Source: Sphingomonas sp. Leaf208
GTDB taxonomy: Bacteria; Pseudomonadota; Alphaproteobacteria; Sphingomonadales; Sphingomonadaceae
NCBI RefSeq assembly: GCF_001421415.1
Contig: NZ_LMKH01000001.1
Span: 760,107 to 824,106 of the forward strand
Length of the DNA: 64,000 bases
Reading direction: 5' to 3'
Part shown: piece after piece, positions 31,309-63,500 of the stretch
Position numbering within the stretch: position 1 is the stretch's first letter
Layout of the letters: each line of letters starts with the position of its first letter
The notes under the pieces: generated by a model
Database searches by the model: none
Seen by the model: only the letters and a program-made list of their open reading frames with translations
Told to the model about the DNA's origin: nothing
Program-made: the position numbers and the translations under genes

Positions 31309-31818
31309 CTAGCCCAGAAGCTTGTCCAGGTCGTCCCAGCCGGTCGAGAAGTCCAACGTTTGAATGAACGTGACCGGGTGCATCCATTGCACGTTGCAAT
31401 CGTCACAAACGTCCGGAACATGCCTACGCGGCCCGGTACGCTTCGCCTTAGAAACTTCCGCGGTCACAACGCAGCGAACTGTATGGCCGAGAGCGGCGGC
31501 AATGAGGAATGGGTCCTGCCCGATCGTGATCAGGTCGGACTCGTTGAGCAGGCTCCCGTAGCGAGCGAGGACAGCCTGCACCTTCTGAGGATCGCTCGTT
31601 TCGTTTAGCAGTAAAGCTTTTCTGGAGCTTGCGTCCTTCATCCAAGTCGCTAGCTCATCCTTGCCGGTTTCTACTTCAGCGTAGATTTCAGCCGGCATCT
31701 TGAGCGCGTTCAAACCGCCGTGATAGCGAAGCCAACTCCAGAACTCCGGCACCCGTTTCATACCGTACCAAGTCCGGTGAGCGGATATTAGCGCGTTGGC
31801 GTCCAGCAGGTAGAGCAT
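31309..31818 (-). CDS. PIN-like ribonuclease toxin (DUF4411)
   Basis: 169 residues opening MLYLLDANALISAHRTWYGM, the DxN start of a PIN domain. A middle acidic residue lies in EIYAEVETGKDEL, and the later KLLG end and FLIAAALGH segment are as in DUF4411 proteins. The ATG at 31818 overlaps the stop of the HTH-peptidase gene (TGATG), so the pair is translated together. DUF4411 proteins are predicted RNA-cleaving toxins; cleavage here is not shown. Located between the attachment site and integrase, as an accessory pair. Confidence 0.8.
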   Translation of the reverse strand: MLYLLDANALISAHRTWYGMKRVPEFWSWLRYHGGLNALKMPAEIYAEVETGKDELATWMKDASSRKALLLNETSDPQKVQAVLARYGSLLNESDLITIGQDPFLIAAALGHTVRCVVTAEVSKAKRTGPRRHVPDVCDDCNVQWMHPVTFIQTLDFSTGWDDLDKLLG

Positions 31819-33020
31819 CAGGCGGCAACTCGCCTAGTCTCGGCGAGCAACGGATAGACGTTCATTGGATTGACCCCCAACATCTTGGCGGCACGAGTCG
31901 GCGTCAGGGAGCCGTCTGCCATTCCTTGGCGAGCGACTGCGAGGAGCGCGGCGCCTAAACGATGACGTCGAACGATGTACCAACTTGGGCCGCCGTCAGT
32001 GGTACGGTTCCGTTCCTTGTCCCGATCCTTCTTGGCCAACCACTCCGCTTGAAAGGCGTCCCTGAGGCCTTCCCATACGACCAGAGTTATCCGACCGGCG
32101 CGGTACAGTTGGTACGCTATCATCGCACGGCTAACCTTTGCTCGGTCGGCAAGGGCGTTAATGTGCCGTAAGTCGGCCACCCCACCCTCCAAGGGGAGAT
32201 CCCTGATTTCGGAGATAGAGATCAGTGTTGCCGCGGCAGTGTCGTTACACAGCTGCTCCACAGCGCCTTGCGGCGGTCCGCCGCTCACACCGCTTTCGCC
32301 GAGCAAAAGATGGGCTAACTCATGGAGCAACGTAAACGACCAGGCAGACTTTGCGTCTTGATCATTAACGACAACAAACGGCGCCAAAGCATCAGCAATC
32401 GCAAAGCCGCGAAACACGCTCACATCGATCGCCGTGGACCAATGCCCACAGTCGCCTGCCAAAAGTACGAACACTCCGCGCGCTTCGACTAAAGCCCTCA
32501 GATAGCTAAAAGCTTCTTCCGCCGAGCTACGAGCACGATAAGCTTCGCGATCAAACCCGATCGCGTCTATGAGAGCGTCAGATAGGCGCCCTGCGTTACG
32601 CGTCGAGACCTCTGCGCCAACGAGTTGAACCGGCGTAACATCGTCGTCATCTTCAAGAGCTTCTCGAACAAGCGCTTGCCGGGCCTTCACATCGCGCAAA
32701 AGGGTCTCAAGCAGCGCATTGGATGGATCGCTTCGGTCAGGAAGCGTCCGGAAGTCCTGACCGACGTTCACTCGGGCAGGAACCTCCGCCATGTAGAACG
32801 TCAGCAGGGGCCGATGATATTGCTGCGCCATCCTCTTGAGCAGTGTTGGGGAAGGAACCTCGTCCCCTGCTTCAAACTCGGCGAGCCGATCGGCTCCGGT
32901 CAATCCGCGAGCAGGACCTAGGGCGATCTTGCGGGCAGCGGCGTCCAGGCCGAGACCAGCAGTCTCGCGCGCCCATTTCAGGATCTCGGGATTAAGCCCA
33001 GCCACGGTACATGCATGCAC
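31818..33020 (-). CDS. XRE-type HTH protein with ImmA/IrrE metallopeptidase domain
   Basis: 400 residues. The N-terminal HTH is LNPEILKWARETAGLGLDAA. An ImmA/IrrE zinc-peptidase motif follows, HELAH at about 233-237 (FTLLHELAHLLLGE), then downstream Glu/Asp residues. A C-terminal region near LGVNPMNVYPLLAETRRVAA may be a second DNA-binding helix pair. Fusions like this act as antitoxins or transcription factors cut or cutting under stress. GTG 33020 is used; GTG 33005 (MAGLNPEIL) also fits the usual family start. Confidence 0.83.
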   Translation of the reverse strand: MHACTVAGLNPEILKWARETAGLGLDAAARKIALGPARGLTGADRLAEFEAGDEVPSPTLLKRMAQQYHRPLLTFYMAEVPARVNVGQDFRTLPDRSDPSNALLETLLRDVKARQALVREALEDDDDVTPVQLVGAEVSTRNAGRLSDALIDAIGFDREAYRARSSAEEAFSYLRALVEARGVFVLLAGDCGHWSTAIDVSVFRGFAIADALAPFVVVNDQDAKSAWSFTLLHELAHLLLGESGVSGGPPQGAVEQLCNDTAAATLISISEIRDLPLEGGVADLRHINALADRAKVSRAMIAYQLYRAGRITLVVWEGLRDAFQAEWLAKKDRDKERNRTTDGGPSWYIVRRHRLGAALLAVARQGMADGSLTPTRAAKMLGVNPMNVYPLLAETRRVAA

Positions 33021-33126: not shown

Positions 33127-34380
33127 TTAAACGTCGGCTAGCTCTCTCACATGAGCCCGGCGAACTGTCGCTATCCTCCGCGCTTTGTCGGCATTAGCCT
33201 TGTTGTATATGCGAGTGACCGCAAGCGTCTTATGACCGGAAACGGCCCGCACATCGTCTTCACCAGCGTCACCAATCTCGGTGATCCCACCGTGCCGGAA
33301 CCCGGTGAAAGTCATATCCTTGGGTAGACCGGCCTCCACGCAGATTTTGCGATGGACCGACGACATGCGCCGCTCCCGATACTTCTTCCCGCTGCGCTCC
33401 TCGAGCACGATCACCTCGGCGTCGGCGGCAACCACCGCGCGCGATCTGGCCAGCTCTTCCTCCAGTTCGGGATAGAGCGACACCGTCTCCGGTTTGCCGT
33501 CCTCGCCGATCACAACGATCGACAGTGGTAAGGTCACCGGGTTGCCGGTCTTTGACTGAACCAGGCTAATTTCCTGGCTCGGTCGATACCCTGCCCATTC
33601 GATGCCGCGGTGTTCCCTGCCGTCCGGATCCTCGAACCCGAACGCATCCCATACGCGCTGACAGCATTCGAAGCATAACGCGGCGGCGGTCGCCATCGAC
33701 TGGAAGCCCAACTTACGTGCGGTTTCGCGGTAGAGGTTGTACTCGGCTCGGCTAGTCTCGCGGTTGCCCTTGGCGGCCGTACTGGAGAGCCCCATGCCTT
33801 TGAACGGGTTCTCCTTTACGCCGGTCACCCGATGATGACGAGCCGCCCAGGTCCAAACGAGCCGGCAGACCTGCATGGCATACGACGCCTGTCGATCGCC
33901 CTTCTCCTTGAGCTTCTGGTACAGCTTGTCCGCGACGGTCGCGTTGACCTTTGACGCCATGCGCTTACCGAGCGGCGGCTGACCGGCTTTCGGTTCGAAC
34001 GCCACCAGCATGTCCATCAGCGCCTTGTAGTCCTTTCGCGTCTTCGCCTTGTTCTTGGTGAAGCGCTCCTGCTCACGGTACCACTGGAACAGCCAGGCGA
34101 CGCTACCCTCGGCGATACGCCCCTGCCCCATCTCGCCGGTCCGCCATTCGCGCAGTGCCGCGTTCAGAGCTGCGCCCTTCGCATGAACCTGCGCTAGGTC
34201 AGTGCCGAGCGCTGTCGAGATCACCGGGCATGCTTGGCCATGACGCACGGCAGGTGCCAGCTTGCCGGTCTTTGGATCTTTCGTCGGCCGCGCCCAGGCC
34301 GGGAGCTCGAAATAGTAGCCGGTCTTGTCGCCAGCGAGCTTCATCGGCCGTACGTATGCCGGCAGTCGCGCGATCGCCAT
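33127..34380 (-). CDS. int: Tyrosine site-specific integrase
   Basis: 417 residues. A core-binding region spans about 90-190. The catalytic domain shows Arg242 (ECCQRVWDAF), Lys277 (VQSKTGNP), Arg362 (TGFRHGG, where the usual first His is Thr), His383 (SGHKTLAVT) and the nucleophile Tyr392 (RIYNK). The ATG at 34380 is preferred over the 46-codon Arg-rich extension upstream. The upstream HTH gene overlaps it by one base (TGATG), so the two are coupled. It points toward tRNA-Lys, the presumed integration site. Confidence 0.93.
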   Translation of the reverse strand: MAIARLPAYVRPMKLAGDKTGYYFELPAWARPTKDPKTGKLAPAVRHGQACPVISTALGTDLAQVHAKGAALNAALREWRTGEMGQGRIAEGSVAWLFQWYREQERFTKNKAKTRKDYKALMDMLVAFEPKAGQPPLGKRMASKVNATVADKLYQKLKEKGDRQASYAMQVCRLVWTWAARHHRVTGVKENPFKGMGLSSTAAKGNRETSRAEYNLYRETARKLGFQSMATAAALCFECCQRVWDAFGFEDPDGREHRGIEWAGYRPSQEISLVQSKTGNPVTLPLSIVVIGEDGKPETVSLYPELEEELARSRAVVAADAEVIVLEERSGKKYRERRMSSVHRKICVEAGLPKDMTFTGFRHGGITEIGDAGEDDVRAVSGHKTLAVTRIYNKANADKARRIATVRRAHVRELADV

Positions 34381-34616
34381 CAGTCGAACTCGATCGCGCC
34401 ATCGTCGGCCGCGCCGGCGAACAAGCTCTGCACGGCAGCGTCGAGCGACGAACGGGCTGCGATCGCCGCGCCACGAGGTCCGCGCATACAGAAACGAACG
34501 GTGCCGCGACGCTCCCATTCGCGCAGCTGGGCATCAGCTACGCCGGTGTAGGCGAGCGCCATCTCCCGAGTCATCGCAACCGGCCAGTCGGGCAGTCGTT
34601 CCAATGCAAGGCCCAT
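34380..34616 (-). CDS. Small HTH protein, possible excisionase or directionality factor
   Basis: 78 residues beginning MGLALERLPDWPVAMTREMA. It contains a winged-helix-like MALAYTGVADAQLREWERRG segment with a following basic RGPRGAAI. This order resembles short excisionase-type proteins. It is directly upstream of, and overlaps, the integrase. The HTH is visible; the excisionase role is inferred from position. Confidence 0.65.
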   Translation of the reverse strand: MGLALERLPDWPVAMTREMALAYTGVADAQLREWERRGTVRFCMRGPRGAAIAARSSLDAAVQSLFAGAADDGAIEFD

Positions 34617-35607: not shown

Positions 35608-35904
35608 TCATGCGGCGATCCGTCGGAATGGCATAACGTTGGCGTCGATCTCGCCGCCCTGCCCTACTCGCTCCCCACCATCTGGCCCACCACGCGGGCC
35701 CGCCCACCGCCCGCAGCCGCGAGAAGCCAAAGTCTCAGGGAAATAGCTCCCCTGTATCCCCGCCTGCCGAACCACGATGGGCGGGGCGATCGTGCAGGTG
35801 CCGATCTCGGGATCGGCACCTGCCGCGCGGCGGAAGCCGGTGGCAAGCGGCGGTTGCTCGTTCGACCACCAGGCGCAGCTGGCGCAGGTCCGCTCGCAAG
35901 TCAT
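35608..35904 (-). CDS. Cys-rich small protein of a phage zinc-ribbon-like type
   Basis: 98 residues starting MTCERTCASCAWWSNEQPPL. It has C-x2-C (CASC), TCTIAPPIV, FPETLASRGCGRW and a Gly-rich tail. The Cys spacing with an aromatic W pair and a final CGRW is typical of short phage proteins with the pattern CxxCxxW...C...PP...W. The ATG overlaps the stop of the upstream gene as ATGA (35901-35904), which strongly supports translation. It fills what would otherwise be a gap. Confidence 0.7.
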   Translation of the reverse strand: MTCERTCASCAWWSNEQPPLATGFRRAAGADPEIGTCTIAPPIVVRQAGIQGSYFPETLASRGCGRWAGPRGGPDGGERVGQGGEIDANVMPFRRIAA

Positions 35905-37160
35905 GCCGCCATCTCGCGATGACGTGCGTCCGCCGCGGCATTGAGCGAACCAATGCCAACAACACGGCGAGCATCGATCAGCGCGGACGCGCACCAGTCG
36001 GGATCTGGTGAGCTACCTTCGAGAGCGGTCTGGACGATAAGCGCGAGCTTGGCGATCACTCCAGAGGCCGATCCCGCCGGCGTGGCGGCAATGTCGCCCT
36101 CTAGTGCGGTTGCAATAGAGCACTGCTCGCTAGCCAGTTCCTCACTCAACTGGGCCTCGGTCGCACGATTGACCTTGAGCAGGGCGAGGTTCCGGTCTGC
36201 CAGCCACGAGGCATGGGGATCGGCGGGGGTGGGGGCATTTGCGAGGTGCCTGATATCGGCCACGATGCCGCGGGCGTGATCGCCGAAAAGCACGTCTTCG
36301 AAGCACTCTGCTCGGCCAGCCGCAAAGTCCAGTTTGAGGCTCAGTGCCGCCAGATTGGGGGCACGAACTTTCTCAATTAGATAGTCCATCGCCTCACAAC
36401 ACGCGTCGACCTTCTCGTCCGCTTGGGGATCGTCCGGCAGCATGACATTGCACAGGTGATCAGCTGCTATATACGCGCCCATGGCGGCATCCCATGACGT
36501 CCCCTGTTCGACGTCGACATTCTCACGTTGGGCGGCGGCCGAAAACGCACCGACGATCATAGCGCCGACCGGCCGCGCGAACGGAAAGCCCAGCCCAGGC
36601 GGTGAGTAGGATGATGCCCGGCGCGAGAGGCGCTCGATGGCCGCGATCAGTGGAGATAGCACTGTCAGGTCACTACCCAGGCCGGTGGCGACGCGATTAA
36701 GGGCATACGACGAGTCTTCGGGTCGAAAGCGCAGTGGCCCGAAGGAATGGCTGTCGGAAATCTCGAGATTGAGTAGCCAAGCTTTGAAGAGGATGTCCTG
36801 CAAGCCGTGAGCAGGCACGGCCGACAGATTGCCAAGCGCCTCCATCAACGCCGCGCAGAGACCGTCACTCAATCCATCGTCGCGGTCCGTCTCGAACGCG
36901 ACGGCGGCCCGGCCCCATTTGAGGAACGCCGTGTACATGCCTGGCGACAGGACGGGCTTCGCCTCGGCGATCGTCGAGGATGCCCATTCTCCGATCGAGA
37001 GCTCGTCCAGCGTTGCTTCGGGGACTTCGGCCGGCAGTTTCGCCAAGGCGGTATCCACTGCGATCGCAGCATCGCCGGCGATGAAAGCTATCCGGACAGT
37101 AGGCTTGCCCATGACAGGTGCAGGCGGGTTGTACGACTGATAAAGCGAATGCGTTGCCAT
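35901..37160 (-). CDS. Hypothetical prophage protein, 419 residues
   Basis: The protein is mostly helical, rich in Ala and acidic residues, starting MATHSLYQSYNPPAPVMGKP. No domain is recognised. The ATG at 37160 has GAGG five bases upstream; GTG 37166 is less well spaced. It is driven by a promoter overlapped by the palindrome at 37179-37194, so it is likely under lysogeny control. It is translationally coupled to the Cys-rich gene that follows. Confidence 0.72.
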   Translation of the reverse strand: MATHSLYQSYNPPAPVMGKPTVRIAFIAGDAAIAVDTALAKLPAEVPEATLDELSIGEWASSTIAEAKPVLSPGMYTAFLKWGRAAVAFETDRDDGLSDGLCAALMEALGNLSAVPAHGLQDILFKAWLLNLEISDSHSFGPLRFRPEDSSYALNRVATGLGSDLTVLSPLIAAIERLSRRASSYSPPGLGFPFARPVGAMIVGAFSAAAQRENVDVEQGTSWDAAMGAYIAADHLCNVMLPDDPQADEKVDACCEAMDYLIEKVRAPNLAALSLKLDFAAGRAECFEDVLFGDHARGIVADIRHLANAPTPADPHASWLADRNLALLKVNRATEAQLSEELASEQCSIATALEGDIAATPAGSASGVIAKLALIVQTALEGSSPDPDWCASALIDARRVVGIGSLNAAADARHREMAA

Positions 37161-37178
37161 AACCACCTCGGTAGACTA

Positions 37179-37194
37179 AGAACAACCTTGTTCT
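37179..37194 (-). promoter_or_regulatory. Palindromic operator 1
   Basis: AGAACAACCTTGTTCT: arms AGAACAA and TTGTTCT, perfect, two-base centre. It covers the -10 of the promoter for the 37160 gene. It matches operator 2 at 13 of 16 positions. Confidence 0.7.
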
Positions 37195-37218
37195 ACCTAT
37201 TCCGTCAACTCCGCGCAA
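37190..37218 (-). promoter_or_regulatory. Promoter for the 37160 gene
   Basis: On the minus strand TTGCGC (37218-37213) and TAGAAC (37195-37190) are 17 bases apart. The -35 region sits in a block that is repeated in front of the 38019 gene. Confidence 0.5.
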
Positions 37219-37227
37219 GGGAAAAGA

Positions 37228-37917
37228 TCAATCATGTTCTCTACGCCTGATGGCTGCTTCAATGTCGACTCGTGGACCGTGGTCTCGGGGGTATACTCCA
37301 AATTCCGCCTTGTATTCCTCATCGTCTGCAGCGCGTTCCGCGTCGTCCCAATCTAAATACGCCGTTCTAAGACCGGCGAAGTCACCCGAATAGTGAGCGA
37401 TGCTATCAAGAACGATGGTAAGGTTTATAAGTGCCAAACGCCGCCACTCCAGTCGCTTACTGTCGGTAAGTTGGCGTGCCATCTCCGGCGCAGAAGTGTA
37501 GAAGAATGTGTCATCAGTAGGATCTTCTTCCGCGTCAGTTAGACTCGACAACGATTTTGGATCGCAAAATAAAAATACATCGAATCCACCGTTATCATCT
37601 TTTACCAGGGTAGTAAGCTCAGGGTGAGCATTAATCGCGAGTGATGTAGCGGTTCTAATATTATACCAATTTTTCTTGAGAAGCTTCGCTGCTCGCTCTG
37701 GCGTTACTCCGATTTGGAGAAGCTCAAACCCTAGGCAAAGCTTCAGTACCGCGCCAAAGTCATAGGATGCGGCCTTACCTTTCCCCGTGTTGGTTCCCCC
37801 AGGCCAGCCATTGCGCTGAAAATGTTTGATGCGACCTTGCAATGCAACTCGATTTTGAGGCGCCACGTCGTGCATCTCAGCTAGCAGGTCTTCGAGACCG
37901 CGATATGTCAGCCGCAC
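37228..37917 (-). CDS. Hypothetical regulator-like protein, candidate prophage repressor
   Basis: 229 residues. The N-terminal half (YRGLEDLLAEMHDVAPQNRV, then IKHFQRNGWPGG, later FGAVLKLCLGFELLQIGVTP) has the look of a MerR-type winged helix with a dimer helix. The C-terminal half is acidic and unassigned. GTG 37917 has GGAGGG seven bases upstream. The gene is clearly richer in A+T than its neighbours, suggesting recent exchange. It lies between two operators and diverges from the AlpA-like gene, so it could be the repressor; this is inference. Confidence 0.7.
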   Translation of the reverse strand: MRLTYRGLEDLLAEMHDVAPQNRVALQGRIKHFQRNGWPGGTNTGKGKAASYDFGAVLKLCLGFELLQIGVTPERAAKLLKKNWYNIRTATSLAINAHPELTTLVKDDNGGFDVFLFCDPKSLSSLTDAEEDPTDDTFFYTSAPEMARQLTDSKRLEWRRLALINLTIVLDSIAHYSGDFAGLRTAYLDWDDAERAADDEEYKAEFGVYPRDHGPRVDIEAAIRRREHD

Positions 37918-37956
37918 GCGTACCCTCCGTTAAAAGAAGGCCTTTGATCTTCCCCC

Positions 37957-37985
37957 TTGCACGGAGTCAACGGAAACCATATAAA
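37957..37985 (+). promoter_or_regulatory. Sigma-70 promoter for the AlpA-like gene
   Basis: TTGCAC (37957-37962) and TATAAA (37980-37985) are exactly 17 bases apart. The start of transcription would fall near 37992, inside operator 2. Confidence 0.75.
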
Positions 37986-37990
37986 GGAGA

Positions 37991-38006
37991 AGAACAGTCT
38001 TATTCT
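37991..38006 (+). promoter_or_regulatory. Palindromic operator 2
   Basis: AGAACAGTCTTATTCT: an imperfect version of operator 1, five of seven arm pairs. It spans the predicted transcription start and abuts the ribosome site GCAGGAG. A bound repressor would block both. Confidence 0.65.
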
Positions 38007-38018
38007 GCAGGAGCGCAT

Positions 38019-38216
38019 ATGTTATCGTCCGATCTACTTGTGGGGGCTAAGGCGGCTGCTACCTTCACTGGGCTGACCGAGAGAGCGATCTATCACCTTG
38101 TAGAGACCGAGCGATTGCCGGTAATTCGGAAAGGTAGAAGCCTTTTTTTTCTTCGCAGTTCGCTCGAGCGAGCCTTCTCGGAGGTGACCACGAACTCCCC
38201 CACGAAGTTAAGATGA
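38019..38216 (+). CDS. AlpA/excisionase-like HTH regulator
   Basis: 65 residues starting MLSSDLLVGAKAAATFTGLT. The winged helix GLTERAIYHLVETERLPVIR and the wing KGRSLFFLRSSLERAF are those of the MerR-like HTH_17 family. GCAGGAG lies five bases before the ATG. It diverges from the candidate repressor and is the first rightward gene, the position usually held by Cro- or Cox-like regulators or excisionases. Confidence 0.78.
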   Translation: MLSSDLLVGAKAAATFTGLTERAIYHLVETERLPVIRKGRSLFFLRSSLERAFSEVTTNSPTKLR

Positions 38217-38715: not shown

Positions 38716-39186
38716 ATGAACGCACCGTACATCCACGGACGCCGTCGTACGTTCTCCGCGTCAGCCGCGGTCGATACGCAGAACGTCGTAATCACTTCGA
38801 TCAAGACGGACGACGGCGCAACCTGGGGCGACATGGGTCGCGTGCTGGGCAAGTCGGAAGATCGGGCGGCGGCGTATGCCAACACCGCATCGCCGATCGA
38901 TCTGCCGACATTCCTCGCTGGTTGCCATGAGTGGGGCGGCAGGTTCGCGGACCCGCTGCTGGCGCTAGTCGGCGGTCGCTGGGCGGATGCCGGTTCGGTA
39001 TGCTCGGGCGACGACCCTGCGTCAGTTACCCTCGCTACGTTGCTGCCGTCGATCATTCGCGCCGAACTGGACGGTGAAACGACAGTCGAAGAAGTGGCAC
39101 CGCATGAGGCCCTGATTCGCCGTGCACACGCGATCACCTGCCAGTGGCTCGAGATGATCGCAGCTTCCAAAGGCGGCGCGAAGTGA
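38716..39186 (+). CDS. Hypothetical phage protein upstream of the primase
   Basis: 156 residues starting MNAPYIHGRRRTFSASAAVD. It contains VLGKSEDRAAAYANTAS, reminiscent of an antirepressor or replication-associated regulator, but no domain is secure. Its stop overlaps the primase start as GTGA, so it is part of the replication operon. Confidence 0.65.
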   Translation: MNAPYIHGRRRTFSASAAVDTQNVVITSIKTDDGATWGDMGRVLGKSEDRAAAYANTASPIDLPTFLAGCHEWGGRFADPLLALVGGRWADAGSVCSGDDPASVTLATLLPSIIRAELDGETTVEEVAPHEALIRRAHAITCQWLEMIAASKGGAK

Positions 39187-40178
39187 GCCGCAATACGGCT
39201 CGGGCAGAACGCGATGCCGCCTTTCGCCAAGCGGTGGACGAGGCCAAGCAGCGCTACAACATCAGCGACGTCGTCGCCCGCACCCGCAAGGTCGTCCGCG
39301 CTGGCAAGAACGAGAAGCGTGCCCTGTGCGCCTTCCATCACGAGCGCACGCCATCGATGCAGTTGAACGATGCCAAGGGCACGTATCACTGCTTCGGCTG
39401 CGGTGCGTTCGGCGACATCGTCAAGTACGTGATGACGACCGAGAACATCGGCTTTCTCGAAGCGATGAAGTGGCTGGGTGCCGCCAGCCTGCCCGGTGTG
39501 GATCCGGCGCAGCGCGCTAGGGCGGCAGCCGAGGACGAAGATGATCGGCAACGTGCCATCGATCGCGCGCAGTCAGTCTGGGACAAAGCGATCCCCGCCC
39601 CCGGCACGCCTGCTGAGGTCTATCTGCGCAGCCGCGGCATCATCATGCCGGCTCCTCATACGATCCGGTTCTCGAAGACGCCCGCCTGGTACGACGATGA
39701 TACGGGTCAGTGTGGTCCCGACCTGCCCGCCCTTGTCGGTGCGGTGGTCGATGGTGACGATCAGCTTATTGGCCTGCAGCGGATCTTTCTCGCCGACGGT
39801 GGCAAACATAAGGCGCGCATGGAGAAGCCCAAGCGGAGCCTTGGTCGGATCAAGGGCGGCGCGCTCCGGTTCAACTCTGACGCTTACAGTGTCGGTGACG
39901 AACTGATCGTGACGGAGGGGCCTGAGGACGGGCTGAGCCTAGCGCAGGAACTGGGTGCCGAAGTCTGGGTCACGCTTGGCACCGCGATGATGCCGTACAT
40001 CGAATACCCCCGTCGGATCGTCTCGATCGTGATCGCCGGCCAGAACGATGCTGCCGGTCGCGCCGCGGTCGAGAAGGTCGAGGAAGAGCTGATCGAGCAA
40101 GGTTACTCGACGCGGATCATGTGGCCTGCCGACGGCTTCAAGGATTGGAACGATCAACTCCGGGGTATCCGGGCATGA
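39183..40178 (+). CDS. DnaG-type primase with CHC2 zinc finger and Toprim domain
   Basis: 331 residues. The zinc finger uses Cys49, His52, Cys70 and Cys73 (CAFHHERTPSM then YHCFGCGAFGDI). The Toprim core has VTEGPEDGLSLAQEL near residue 245 and the later acidic IAGQNDAAG, in place of the usual DxDxAG. It makes RNA primers for phage replication. GTG 39183 overlaps the previous stop; the DnaB start overlaps this stop (ATGA). Confidence 0.92.
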   Translation: MSRNTARAERDAAFRQAVDEAKQRYNISDVVARTRKVVRAGKNEKRALCAFHHERTPSMQLNDAKGTYHCFGCGAFGDIVKYVMTTENIGFLEAMKWLGAASLPGVDPAQRARAAAEDEDDRQRAIDRAQSVWDKAIPAPGTPAEVYLRSRGIIMPAPHTIRFSKTPAWYDDDTGQCGPDLPALVGAVVDGDDQLIGLQRIFLADGGKHKARMEKPKRSLGRIKGGALRFNSDAYSVGDELIVTEGPEDGLSLAQELGAEVWVTLGTAMMPYIEYPRRIVSIVIAGQNDAAGRAAVEKVEEELIEQGYSTRIMWPADGFKDWNDQLRGIRA

Positions 40179-41599
40179 GCGGCGCGTTCGAAGAGCAGTT
40201 CGCGACTGCCGAGACCGCCAGCCCACTTCACAACGTCGAGGCAGAGATCGGCTTTCTCGGTGACCTGCTGGCGAACAACCGGCTGATCGATGAGGTCGCC
40301 GATCGCTGCCGCCCGGCCGACTTCTCGGTCTCGCTGTACGGTCGCATCTACGGCAAGATGATTGAGCAGTCCGCGTCGGGCGCGGTCGACGTGGTGACGC
40401 TGGCGCCTCACTTCGCTGAGGATGAGGAATGGCCGCGCGCATATTCGGTGCTGGCCGCAGCCAACCTCAACGCAGGGCCCAAGGCACGGACCAGGGCGTA
40501 CTTCGACCAGATCACTATGCTGTCGAGCCGCCGGCGGATGGTTGCAGGCCTGAAAGATGTTGTCGCCTCAGCGCGCGACCTGTCAGTGACGCGAGAGGAA
40601 CTGGTTGCGAACGCAGATGAAGCAGTCGCCGAGTTGGCGGAGCAGGTCGTCACCGCGCAGGGATCCGTTGGTCAGTATGCCGACGCGGTCATTAACAGCT
40701 TCGGCAAACCGATCATTGGCGTCCGCTGCGGGACCATCAACTCGCTCGACAACGCCATCGGCGTGTTGCGCCCGTCGAACCTAGTCGTCGTCGGTGGCCG
40801 TCCCGGTATGGGCAAGACCTCTCTGGTCACATCATACTCAATCGGTGCGGCTGGCATGGGACACGGGGTCCTTATTTTCTCGCTCGAGATGAGCGCCGAC
40901 GAGCTCACCCGCCGCATGCTCGCTGACATGACGTTCTCGCCACGCGGCGGCGTACCGTACGAACACGTTCGCGATGGGACGGTTCGCTCGCATGAAATAG
41001 GCGCCGTCATCGCAGCCAAAGAACGGTTCGACGAACTGCCGATCGAGATCAACGAAACCTCGGGCCTGACGCTCGCCAAGCTGATCCGCCAGGCGCGCAG
41101 CCACAAGCGCCGCCTCGCCGCCCAAAGCGAGAAGCTCGAGTTGGTCGTCGTCGATTACCTTCAACTGATGGCGCACAGCCGCAAGGGCATGTCGCCGTAC
41201 GAGCATGCCAGCGAGGTCAGCGTCGGGCTCAAGCAGTTCGCCAAGTCCGAGGGTCTTGTGGTGATGGCGGTGGCGCAGCTCAGCCGCGACGTCGAGAAGC
41301 GTCCGGACAAGCGCCCAATGCCGTCCGACCTCCGCGACAGCGGACAGATCGAGCAGGACGCTGACGTGATCCTCTTCGTCTACCGCGAGGAGGAATACCT
41401 GAAGAAGCAGGAGCCGGACGACCAGTTCGGCGCCAAGTACGAGGCGTGGCGGACCGACATGGAAGCCGTGCGCAACAAGGTCGAGTTCCTCGTCCCCAAG
41501 CGCCGCAGCGGCCCGTCGGGGAAGGCTCTCGGCTGGTTCTTCGGCGCAAACTCAGCCGTCCGAGGCAGCGATTTCTACAGTTCGAGGGAAGGTGCATAA
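40175..41599 (+). CDS. dnaB: Replicative DNA helicase, DnaB-like
   Basis: 474 residues. The N-terminal primase-interaction domain opens PLHNVEAEIGFLGDLLANNR. The RecA-like motor has Walker A GGRPGMGKTS at 207-216, FSLEMSADELTRRML, and the Walker B-like VVVDYLQLM near 321, followed by SQLSRDVEKRPDKRP. It is a phage-borne copy in a coupled primase-helicase-initiator operon. Confidence 0.95.
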   Translation: MSGAFEEQFATAETASPLHNVEAEIGFLGDLLANNRLIDEVADRCRPADFSVSLYGRIYGKMIEQSASGAVDVVTLAPHFAEDEEWPRAYSVLAAANLNAGPKARTRAYFDQITMLSSRRRMVAGLKDVVASARDLSVTREELVANADEAVAELAEQVVTAQGSVGQYADAVINSFGKPIIGVRCGTINSLDNAIGVLRPSNLVVVGGRPGMGKTSLVTSYSIGAAGMGHGVLIFSLEMSADELTRRMLADMTFSPRGGVPYEHVRDGTVRSHEIGAVIAAKERFDELPIEINETSGLTLAKLIRQARSHKRRLAAQSEKLELVVVDYLQLMAHSRKGMSPYEHASEVSVGLKQFAKSEGLVVMAVAQLSRDVEKRPDKRPMPSDLRDSGQIEQDADVILFVYREEEYLKKQEPDDQFGAKYEAWRTDMEAVRNKVEFLVPKRRSGPSGKALGWFFGANSAVRGSDFYSSREGA

Positions 41600-60551: not shown

Positions 60552-63500
60552 GGGTCGTTCTCGACAACGGCACGTTGTTCGACCTCGGCGAGACCGAGGC
60601 AACGCCGTCGATCGGCATCACCGACTTTAGCCGACGCGTCACCGATGACTTCGGCGTCACGACGGTCGTCGAGCGCGGCTTCTCGCGCCGGTTGTCGGTG
60701 AAGCTGGCGCTGCCGTTCGACGGCGTCAGTGCGTTGCAGCAGCGGCTCGCCGATCTGCGCGCGACGTCGGCACTCTGGGTGGCAAGCGATCGGCTCGATT
60801 GGCTGTCGGTGCGCGGGTTCTACAAGGACTTCGATCTCGACCACGCCGTTCCGCCGGTCAGCTATTGCACGCTGACGGTCGAGGGGCTTGCCGAGACGAC
60901 TACGGCTCCCGACGACGGCAGCGATCCGGCGCCGATCGGCGCGACCTCGACGCTGCGACTGATTCAGCCGGTGACGATCGACGGTGCGGCGCTGGCGAAC
61001 AGCAGTGTTACCGAAGACGATTATCCCGAGTGGGCGGCCAGCGCGACGTACGCCACCGGTACCCGCGTCGTTAAAGCGGCGACGCATCGCGTCTACGAGA
61101 GTGCGGCGAACGCGAACGTCGGGAACGATCCGGCAGGCGTGTCGGGCAAGTGGCTCGATGTCGGCCCGACGAATCGCTGGGCGATGTTCGACCAGGCGCT
61201 CGGCTCGGTTACGAGCGCGGCCGACACGATCACGGTAGCGCTCGACGTCACCGGCGCCGATGCAGTCGCGCTGCTCGACGTCACCGGTGCCGCGGTTCGC
61301 GTCCAGGCGGACGGCTACGATCGCACCACGGATGTAGCGGCCGGCGCCATAACCTTTCTCGATCTCCCGCTGGTCACCGGCCGGGTGACGGTCACGATCG
61401 CCGGGACCGTTCAGGTGTCCGTCGGTACGCTGTTGATCGGCCGGTTGCGCAGCCTGGGGATCACCGAAGCGTCGCCAACGGCGGGTATCACCGACTTCAG
61501 CCGCAAGGTGGTCGACGACTTCGGTGACGTGACCGTTGTGCAGCGTGCGTGGTCGAAGCGGATGGCTGCCAAGGCGCTTATCCGCACCGATGCGGTCGAC
61601 GTTGTTGCCAACCGCCTTGCCGCAGTTCGCGCGCGGCCATCGCTGTGGATCGGTCGAGCCGGTCTCGACAGCCTCACGGTGTACGGGTTCTTCAAGGACT
61701 TCTCGATCGAGGTCGGCGTCAATGTCAGCAAGCTGTCGCTGACCATTGAGGGACTGAGCAAGGCGGCCCCCGTCGTGCCGTTCTCATCGGGCGGGTCGGT
61801 CGCATGGCCTGACGTCACAGACCCGACCGGCACCAAGCCGACGGACAACGCGGACGTCACCAGCGACAACACGTCCAAGGATACGAACGCGGTTGGCGGT
61901 AAGCCCGCAACCGATCTGCTCAAGTCGCTCGACGAGCTCGAAAAGGTAACGATCCCGGCGGTCAACGCCGCGGTCGCGCAGGCCGACGCCCGGATCACGG
62001 CAGCAGCCGGGGAGGCCGCAGCAGCGGTCGCCGAGGCCAATGCGCAGATTGTCGCGGCCAATGGCCGGGTGACGGCTGCGCAGGCTACGCTTGATCAGGC
62101 CGTGACGGATCTGAACGCGGAGATCTCGCGCGCGCAGGGCAAAGACGAGCAGCTGTCGCAGCGCATCGATGCGCTGATCGTCGAAGGTAACGGCTACGAC
62201 GACACGAACGTGCGCGCCCTTATCGAGCAGGCGGAGACGGTGCGGGCCGACGGAGACCGTGCGCTGGCCGAACGGATCGACCGGGTCGTCACGTCATATC
62301 AGGATCTCGACACCGCCACGAATGCTCGGATCACCGATACCGCGCAGGCGCTTGCGAGCGCAGACGAGGCCATCGCCCGACGCGCAACCGAGATCGAGTC
62401 CCGTGCAAGTACCTCGGGCGGCAACCTCGTGCCGAATAGCAGCCTCAGCACGCTGGACGGCTGGCTGCTCACATACAACTCAGGGCTAGCGTCCGAAGTC
62501 GGTTTGAACGGGGCCGGCGTGCCGTTCATGATCGGCGGCGTCGAGAACAACCTTGTGCTGCATCGTACTGCAGCCGGCGCGGGATTGTGCAGCGAAGCCC
62601 AAAGCAGCCCCTTCGCCGTTCGGCCCGGGTCGAGCCTACAGTTCTACGTGTTCACCGCGTCGCATCGCTGCCGTGCGTGGGTCTCTGTTTTCTTCCTCAA
62701 TTCAGAGAATGCAACGATTGGTTACGGTGGCGAAAATCCCGGTGCCCGCATCAACGCCGGCGGCCAAGACCTCAACCAGTGGGACCAGACAGGGCTGAAG
62801 GAGACCGTCGTTCCCGACGGTGCGGTTCGAGCCACGATCGTCTTGCGATCGTACGACGTCGAGGTTGACGGCTATGCGTGGTTCTCCCGTCCGTTCGTTA
62901 CTGAGGTCCGCCCGGGCACGACTACCTGGGCACCGTACAGCGCGGGCAACGATCGCGGCATCCTGTCGGCGACGCGTGCCCTCGTCAGTTCGGTCGCGAC
63001 AACGCTGGCCGATGCCGATCAGGCGATCGGACGGCGGATGGACAGTGTCACTGCTGACTACCAGGGCCGTGATTCCGCAACGAACACGCGGATCACCGAT
63101 ACGGCGACCGCTTTGGCGAACGCCGACGAAGCCATTGGGCAGCGTATCAGCGAAGTGCAGAGCGGCTTCACGTCTGGCGGCGGCAACCTGCTGAGCAACA
63201 CCGACTTCGTCACTTCGGACGGGTGGAGCGAAAGCTTCAACGTCTCGCCCCGCCCGAGTTACCTGATCAACGCTGCCGGCGCTCCGTATCATCCTGTTGG
63301 CGAGAGCGTACTTTCGATCGTTCAGGGCGAGCCCACCGGTGGTGATGCTTATTACGCCGACTGGGTTTCTCCCGTCGTCGCTGTCGTGCCCGGCTCCTTC
63401 ATCCAGTTCTCGGCGATGTGCGCTTCTCATCGCGCCGACACGCAAATCTTTCTTGGCTGGATCGGCACAGACGGTGTGATTTTCGCCTTTGCCCCCGGCA

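Follow-up and report, generated by a model that had tools for sequence, protein, structure and literature searches.

A small gene in a prophage of Sphingomonas sp. Leaf208 lies between two similar promoter regions that face opposite ways, and the locus raises the question of which protein reads the repeated sites and whether the arrangement is a lysogeny switch. The preliminary description had proposed an immunity switch whose repressor, an A+T-rich 229-residue protein, is not CI-like. The window (the whole stretch of 64,000 nucleotides analyzed) contains an element of roughly 40 kb, a prophage encoding a large terminase and tail proteins of its own, which places it outside the definition of a PICI (satellite). 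The gene encoding the 229-residue protein is indeed A+T-rich (49.6% vs 35.8% for the window). At E values up to 0.1, the host genome holds 25 HTH_3 and 4 S24 matches, none of which falls within the prophage portion of the host genome searched. The features needed for the following analysis are:

33127..34518, minus strand: prophage tyrosine integrase (phrog_1, E 5.5e-21; Phage_integrase, E 4.3e-6, 27.0 bits vs 27.1)
35901..37160, minus strand: 419-residue protein (counted from the GTG at 37166, 421 codons), encoded first downstream of the leftward promoter
37179..37194, minus strand: OL2, best operator-like palindrome, overlapping the leftward -10 (12/12 consensus positions, 7/8 dyad pairs)
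37200..37231, minus strand: left 32-nt block, core of the leftward promoter, which serves the 421-codon gene (-35 TTGCGC at 37218-37213; -10 TAGAAC at 37195-37190)
37225..37240, minus strand: OL1, operator-like site upstream of the leftward -35, at the 3' end of the 229-residue gene (11/12 consensus positions)
37228..37917, minus strand: 229-residue MerR/CvkR-like protein, proposed immunity repressor (predicted fold; alpA-divergent relatives; operator co-variation with the N-terminal domain)
37935..37950, plus strand: OR1, weak operator-like site upstream of the alpA-type promoter's -35 (9/12 consensus positions; placed like the upstream copy of the relatives)
37944..37975, plus strand: right 32-nt block, core of the alpA-type promoter (-35 TTGCAC at 37957-37962; -10 TATAAA at 37980-37985, just outside)
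37991..38006, plus strand: OR2, operator-like palindrome past the -10 (11/12 consensus positions)
38019..38216, plus strand: 65-residue AlpA/excisionase-type HTH_17 protein (AlpA65), encoded at the head of the early rightward operon
38716..41599, plus strand: early genes following the alpA-type gene, for a phrog_16695 protein, a primase and a DnaB-like helicase

AlpA65 matched HTH_17 with an E value of 8.7e-6 and 26.4 bits, against a cut-off of 27, and its excisionase-type matches in PHROGs were weaker. The product of the 421-codon gene had no match in Pfam or PHROGs, and its only relatives among viral contigs belong to the same prophage. Beside the integrase, a small gene (34380-34616) matched the transcriptional regulator phrog_25900 (1.2e-27) and is possibly an excisionase-type regulator. 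At the left end of the prophage, beside a tRNA-Lys, a PIN-type DUF4411 gene overlaps a gene with HTH and Peptidase_M78 (IrrE-like) domains (31309-33020); this pair may be toxin-antitoxin-like or may act as an anti-repressor, and the HTH-IrrE protein (31818-33020) is a further DNA-binding candidate of the prophage. The DNA searched showed no right attachment site, and Rfam returned only the tRNA between 30500 and 46000.

The duplicated 23-base block containing the -35, reported as alike at about 18 of 23 positions, proved to be real and longer than described. Sequence comparison within the window aligned 19/23 positions, and the block extends to a 32-nt inverted repeat with 27/32 identical positions. 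With the variable positions written as N, the 32-nt pattern occurs twice in the window for 0.00 expected, and a search of the whole 4.7-Mb genome allowing up to 3 mismatches recovered the same number of matches, both in the switch. Each copy of the block is flanked by two operator-like sites of the AGAACA-N4-TGTTCT type, one of the four sites being weak. The paired 16-bp palindromes OL2 and OR2 are 13/16 identical on the plus strand, as originally written; because the two modules face opposite ways, this identity falls to 12/16 when each palindrome is read in the direction of its own transcript. The additional sites are a third copy, OL1, and a weak fourth, OR1, the latter 17 bases from the start of the 229-residue gene. 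Searching for AGAACANNNNTGTTCT with up to 2 mismatches gave 5 matches in the 64 kb (0.71 expected; at least 5 in 0/100 shuffles): three are OL1, OL2 and OR2, and the remaining two (39442 and 62544) are within reading frames. The second of these, AGAACAACCTTGTGCT at 62544-62559, is one mismatch from OL2 and lies inside a tail-region reading frame, so that it is probably a chance occurrence. Taken alone, the alpA-side intergenic region of the window does not contain a significant two-copy repeat (equalled in 28/300 dinucleotide shuffles).

The same layout is observed at both promoters, with one site before the -35 and the second on or just past the -10; the palindrome sits just past the -10 at the 38019 gene and overlaps the -10 at the 37160 gene, close to the placement first noted. 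OL1 and OL2 are 46 bp apart, and OR1 and OR2 56 bp. We make no claim on helical phasing from this 10-bp difference, since the spacing in relatives ranges from 45 to 66. The promoters themselves were overrated in the preliminary description, which had called TTGCAC-17-TATAAA near perfect: this sequence agrees with the E. coli consensus at 3/6 positions of the -35 and 5/6 of the -10. The left promoter reads TTGCGC-17-TAGAAC from the letters, and a consensus scan of 37100-38100 returned neither a promoter nor a terminator. An automatic choice of promoters scores 17-bp spacers higher (17 bp in 12/28 intergenic regions) and was therefore kept out of the evidence.

The 229-residue protein had been described as a repressor of unrecognised type, and no match was obtained for it in Pfam or PHROGs at E values up to 1, nor in NCBIfam; neither HTH_3 nor S24 was detected in it. 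Its relatives gave scattered weak matches to the family databases. MerR_1 of Pfam was found in 5/28 family members at E values up to 0.1 (best 4.9e-5), the protein of the window itself having no Pfam MerR match. Counting the host each time, matches to the 229-residue protein were found in 36/397 genomes of the family of the host, in 16/296 genomes of an order-level draw and in 3/289 of a class-level draw. Searches to an E value of 1 gave no relative in phage records and a single one, with an E value of 0.06, in plasmid records.

An AlphaFold2 model built on 27 sequences reached a mean pLDDT of 79.8 and a pTM of 0.81. The best solved structure for this model was CvkR (Foldseek E 0.026, probability 0.99), with a structural alignment of 140 residues at Z 10.9, 3.3 A and about 10% identity. 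About 20 other MerR-family chains aligned over residues 1-90 (about 70 aligned residues) with Z scores of 4.6-7.2; according to the note of the alignment tool, values under 8 can reflect a common arrangement. Foldseek gave no match below an E value of 0.001 among solved structures or viral models. In the sequence-profile search of the PDB, CvkR appeared with an E value of 0.38 using the first alignment and was absent using the second. The CRISPR-associated chains found by this search (E 0.012-0.02; 0.2-0.33 with the second alignment) aligned only over the later helices, and we discarded them as chance matches. On the predicted model, the N-terminal part of the protein is a MerR-type winged helix-turn-helix, and the type of the repressor can be named at the level of predicted fold: MerR-like, with CvkR as the closest structure.

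We then considered the genes beside the relatives of this protein. A homolog of AlpA65 was found next to the relative at 17/36 loci of a first search and at 14/31 loci of a second one, 4 of these 14 repeating loci of the first search. The total is 27 distinct relatives whose gene diverges from one of the alpA type. Together with the window, they provide 28 intergenic regions of 101-144 bp. The integrase gene is directly downstream of the repressor-family gene, or overlaps it, in 25 of the 27 relatives, the exceptions being L052 (at a contig end) and L090, where it was not found. The window differs from these relatives in that the 421-codon gene sits between the repressor gene and the integrase. 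The nearest relative, L033 (48%), faces a Phage_AlpA-family gene, not one of the HTH_17 type.

Relatives without an AlpA65 match nearby include L055, L056 and L063, as well as a Sphingorhabdus-type group of eight (L037, L040, L044-L046, L051, L053 and L054). In four members of this group (L044, L045, L046 and L053), the gene is upstream of an apparent thymidylate synthase gene, identified by eye, and the group is possibly a fixed chromosomal branch of the family. Six viral contigs of 9.9-17.8 kb (L094-L099) carry elements with int, a repressor relative and alpA, with a terminase-like match in addition in L095 and L096; they resemble satellites or mini-prophages. The plasmid relative, on pMNOD03 of Methylobacterium nodulans (L169:3643-4591), is divergent (E 0.06) and faces a small gene, beyond which are genes for a primase of the P4 type and the small subunit of a phage terminase, so that pMNOD03 looks like a phage-plasmid. 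The two-site pattern is not clear at that locus.

The operators of the relatives carry the main evidence on which protein reads them. In 19 of the 28 intergenic regions, the two-copy repeat around the alpA promoter was significant at p<0.05 (14 of them at p<0.01; 300 dinucleotide shuffles), and the nine that missed this threshold include that of the window; the operator letters vary from locus to locus. Over the 28 loci, operator similarity was correlated with how alike the 229-type proteins are over their first 82 residues (Spearman 0.34, 0/2000 permutations), compared with 0.20 for the remainder of the protein (given without a permutation test), and not with AlpA similarity (0.03, 690/2000). 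The N-terminal signal stayed at 0.34 (0/2000) when AlpA was held constant, while the partial correlation for AlpA with the 229-type protein held constant was -0.03 (1334/2000). The result was robust to dropping the window (0.35) or five close relatives (0.30), as well as to restricting the set to the 20 loci whose repeat score was at least 8 (0.35; 0/1000 in each case). Three control segments gave 0.02 (365/1000), 0.12 (47/1000) and 0.09 (86/1000); the second is borderline and suggests some shared ancestry, the operator signal being much stronger. Since the operator letters follow its DNA-binding domain, the 229-type protein, and not AlpA, appears to read the sites. The same block plus palindrome had been expected in related prophages, and this expectation holds for the layout: the two-site arrangement is common, and the letters are not conserved but follow the repressor. 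A full second module was not found in relatives of the same repressor family in the 7-16 kb searched, where extra operator copies were limited to weak single-site matches (L095 3710-3727, E 0.067; L035 11798-11810). Support for the left module comes from the window and from prophages with unrelated repressors.

These prophages, which have early genes like those of the window, were found through the 38716 protein (19/397 genomes) and the 421-codon gene (11/397), the host being counted in both, and the switch region was read in 5 of 12 loci (L115, L138, L139, L140 and L141). In L115, from the same genus, the phrog_16695 protein, primase and DnaB-like helicase are 78%, 82% and 80% identical to those of the window, and a homolog of the 421-codon gene occupies the same slot (31%, 2.6e-40). 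Its repressor slot encodes an XRE/HTH_3 protein and its alpA slot a weakly HTH_3-like protein. The repressors of L138 and L139 match HTH_3 above the cut-off, that of L141 matches HTH_3 below it and that of L140 matches S24 below it. The gene at the 421 position has a detectable homolog in L115 and, more weakly, in L138 and L139, with none detected at that position in L140 and L141. In all five prophages, the stretch upstream of the repressor recurs between the repressor and the 421-position gene; with regions chosen by hand and first-order resampling, recurrence was seen in 0/200 resampled pairs for L115, L138, L141 and the window, 2/200 for L139 and 1/200 for L140. Read from these five prophages and the window, the sequences suggest that the OL/OR logic is kept while the repressor and the operator letters change together. 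A leader of about 110 nt before the 421-position gene is alike in four of them (L115:6205-6316, L138:7390-7506, L139:4836-4950 and L141:7963-8081) and seems absent from the window; the L138 leader had no Rfam match of note.

The sites might instead be bound by the AlpA-type protein as an autoactivator, in the manner of Gram-negative PICIs, the 229-residue protein acting elsewhere. In E. coli PICIs, AlpA activates its own promoter, as stated in the available portions of PMC6092414 and PMC11773190, and in Pf4 the excisionase and the repressor both bind the shared intergenic region (PMC7379572, from the part available). We nevertheless regard an AlpA reader as unlikely: the operators track the DNA-binding domain of the 229-type protein and not AlpA, and the nearest relative keeps a 229-type protein while its partner is of the Phage_AlpA family. 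Classical MerR proteins bind between the -35 and the -10, and MerR-activated promoters have spacers of 19-20 bp. The predicted MerR-like fold would suit such an activator, distorting the promoter spacer, and another factor could still occupy the conserved core that separates the sites. The repeated sites are, however, outside the spacer, which is 17 bp in the window, not 19-20 bp. Furthermore, of the 20 relatives scoring at least 8 for the repeat, 17 have an upstream copy that ends between 2 bases after and 6 bases before the start of the TTG hexamer (read by eye, taking the nearest TTG where there were several; exceptions L035, L060 and L095). A classical MerR activator is thus quite improbable here.

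That the left module is a recent, fortuitous duplicate of the right promoter and plays no part in regulation would agree with the missing second module in same-family relatives. We give this very little weight, because the likeness is confined to the promoter core and the operators, none of the other three sites forms as good a dyad as OL2, and in the five prophages whose repressors are of other types, operators of their own, unlike those of the window, recur ahead of the gene at the same position. Prophage switches are often tied to SOS, and the prophage has a further candidate for DNA binding in its HTH-IrrE protein, so a host regulator such as LexA, or that prophage protein, might be the reader. 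GTTCN7GTTC is the alphaproteobacterial LexA-type pattern; it occurs in the prophage at 40598 (minus) and 43837 (plus), distant from the switch. The patterns GTTCN7GTTC, CTGTN8ACAG and GAACN4GTTC are all absent from 37100-38100, and a host factor would not explain sites that differ among related elements and track the 229-type protein, which makes this reading scarcely credible.

Overall, we consider it likely that the locus is a sphingomonad prophage immunity switch of lambda-like OL-repressor-OR order, in which a CvkR/MerR-like repressor and AlpA stand in place of the CI/Cro pair. By position, the repressor gene lies between two putative operator regions at divergent early promoters. The switch with a non-CI-like repressor that was first proposed is supported by the shared slot, the repeated operators of the five prophages and the co-variation, with binding by the 229-residue protein as its candidate basis. 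The repressor, probably a dimer, would bind the AGAACA-N4-TGTTCT-type sites in two pairs that bracket the two promoters. Occupancy of OR1 and OR2 would block the promoter of the alpA-type gene and of the replication genes behind it, and occupancy of OL1 and OL2 would block that of the 421-codon gene; immunity is the presumed outcome. Autoregulation is likely because of the short distance between OR1 and the start of the repressor gene, and the repressor may limit its own synthesis through this site. If repression failed, AlpA would be made and, as an excisionase or an activator, would promote excision and early gene expression. As we found no S24-type domain in the repressor, we infer that induction more likely occurs via a ligand or a partner protein.

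We lean slightly towards a broader reading, in which the family represents CvkR-like MerR master repressors of AlpA-type prophages and small sphingomonad islands, with a member on a Methylobacterium plasmid carrying phage genes. Each element would have one operator specificity, allowing separate control of each element in one cell, and the family would be the counterpart of the unclear master repressor of Gram-negative PICIs. In the window, it would have replaced CI/Cro and, through duplication of its promoter and operators, brought the leftward promoter of the 421-codon gene under its control. Such control of lysogeny outside the CI/XRE type offers a testable protein family, and the 28 pairs of repressor and intergenic region with different operator letters constitute a natural set for decoding how this winged helix reads DNA. 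In the open-access literature searched, we found no description of the repressor family, of its pairing with AlpA or of its proposed place in the switch of a prophage.

A lambda-type immunity region has the order OL-cI-OR. As in L115 and L138-L141, the window resembles it in that the repressor gene is placed between two operator regions, one controlling an early operon that runs rightward and the other a gene that runs leftward, and differs in having a MerR-like repressor instead of an XRE/CI-like one and an AlpA-type protein at the Cro position. The pf4r-xisF4 pair of Pf4 is similar in its divergent repressor and AlpA-like excisionase genes, its shared control region and the repression of the excisionase gene; Pf4 is a filamentous phage, Pf4r resembles the P2 C repressor and not MerR, and the available part of the source describes no second operator module (PMC7379572). 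The int-repressor genes of the relatives facing alpA and replication-type genes are comparable to the int-rpr genes facing xis-pri in PICIs, according to the available text of PMC6092414, PMC10111431 and PMC11773190, and an AlpA-type protein is present in the window switch and its relatives as in AlpA-type Gram-negative PICIs, although the element of the window is a prophage of about 40 kb and not an island. The accessible part of PMC6092414 calls the global repressor of Gram-negative PICIs unclear and gives 'alpA or merR' as their regulators in the legend of its Fig. 1; our results bear on the question of whether a master repressor exists in the AlpA-type islands of Gram-negative bacteria. 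CvkR (Alr3614, PDB 7xn2) is described, in the part of PMC9938897 available, as a MerR-type repressor of type V-K CRISPR-associated transposons that represses at two promoters of its element. The 229-residue protein appears similar to CvkR in predicted fold over the DNA-binding and C-terminal parts (the Z of 10.9 given above), and in both cases palindromes of about 15-16 nt are placed at two promoters of the mobile element concerned (PMC9938897, same part). It differs in the low sequence identity, the element, the partner genes and the operator letters: the CvkR motif AnnACATnATGTnnT is absent from the window, and the neighbourhood is a prophage, not a CAST. Both lambda-style immunity regions and mobile-element repressors of the MerR type have precedents.
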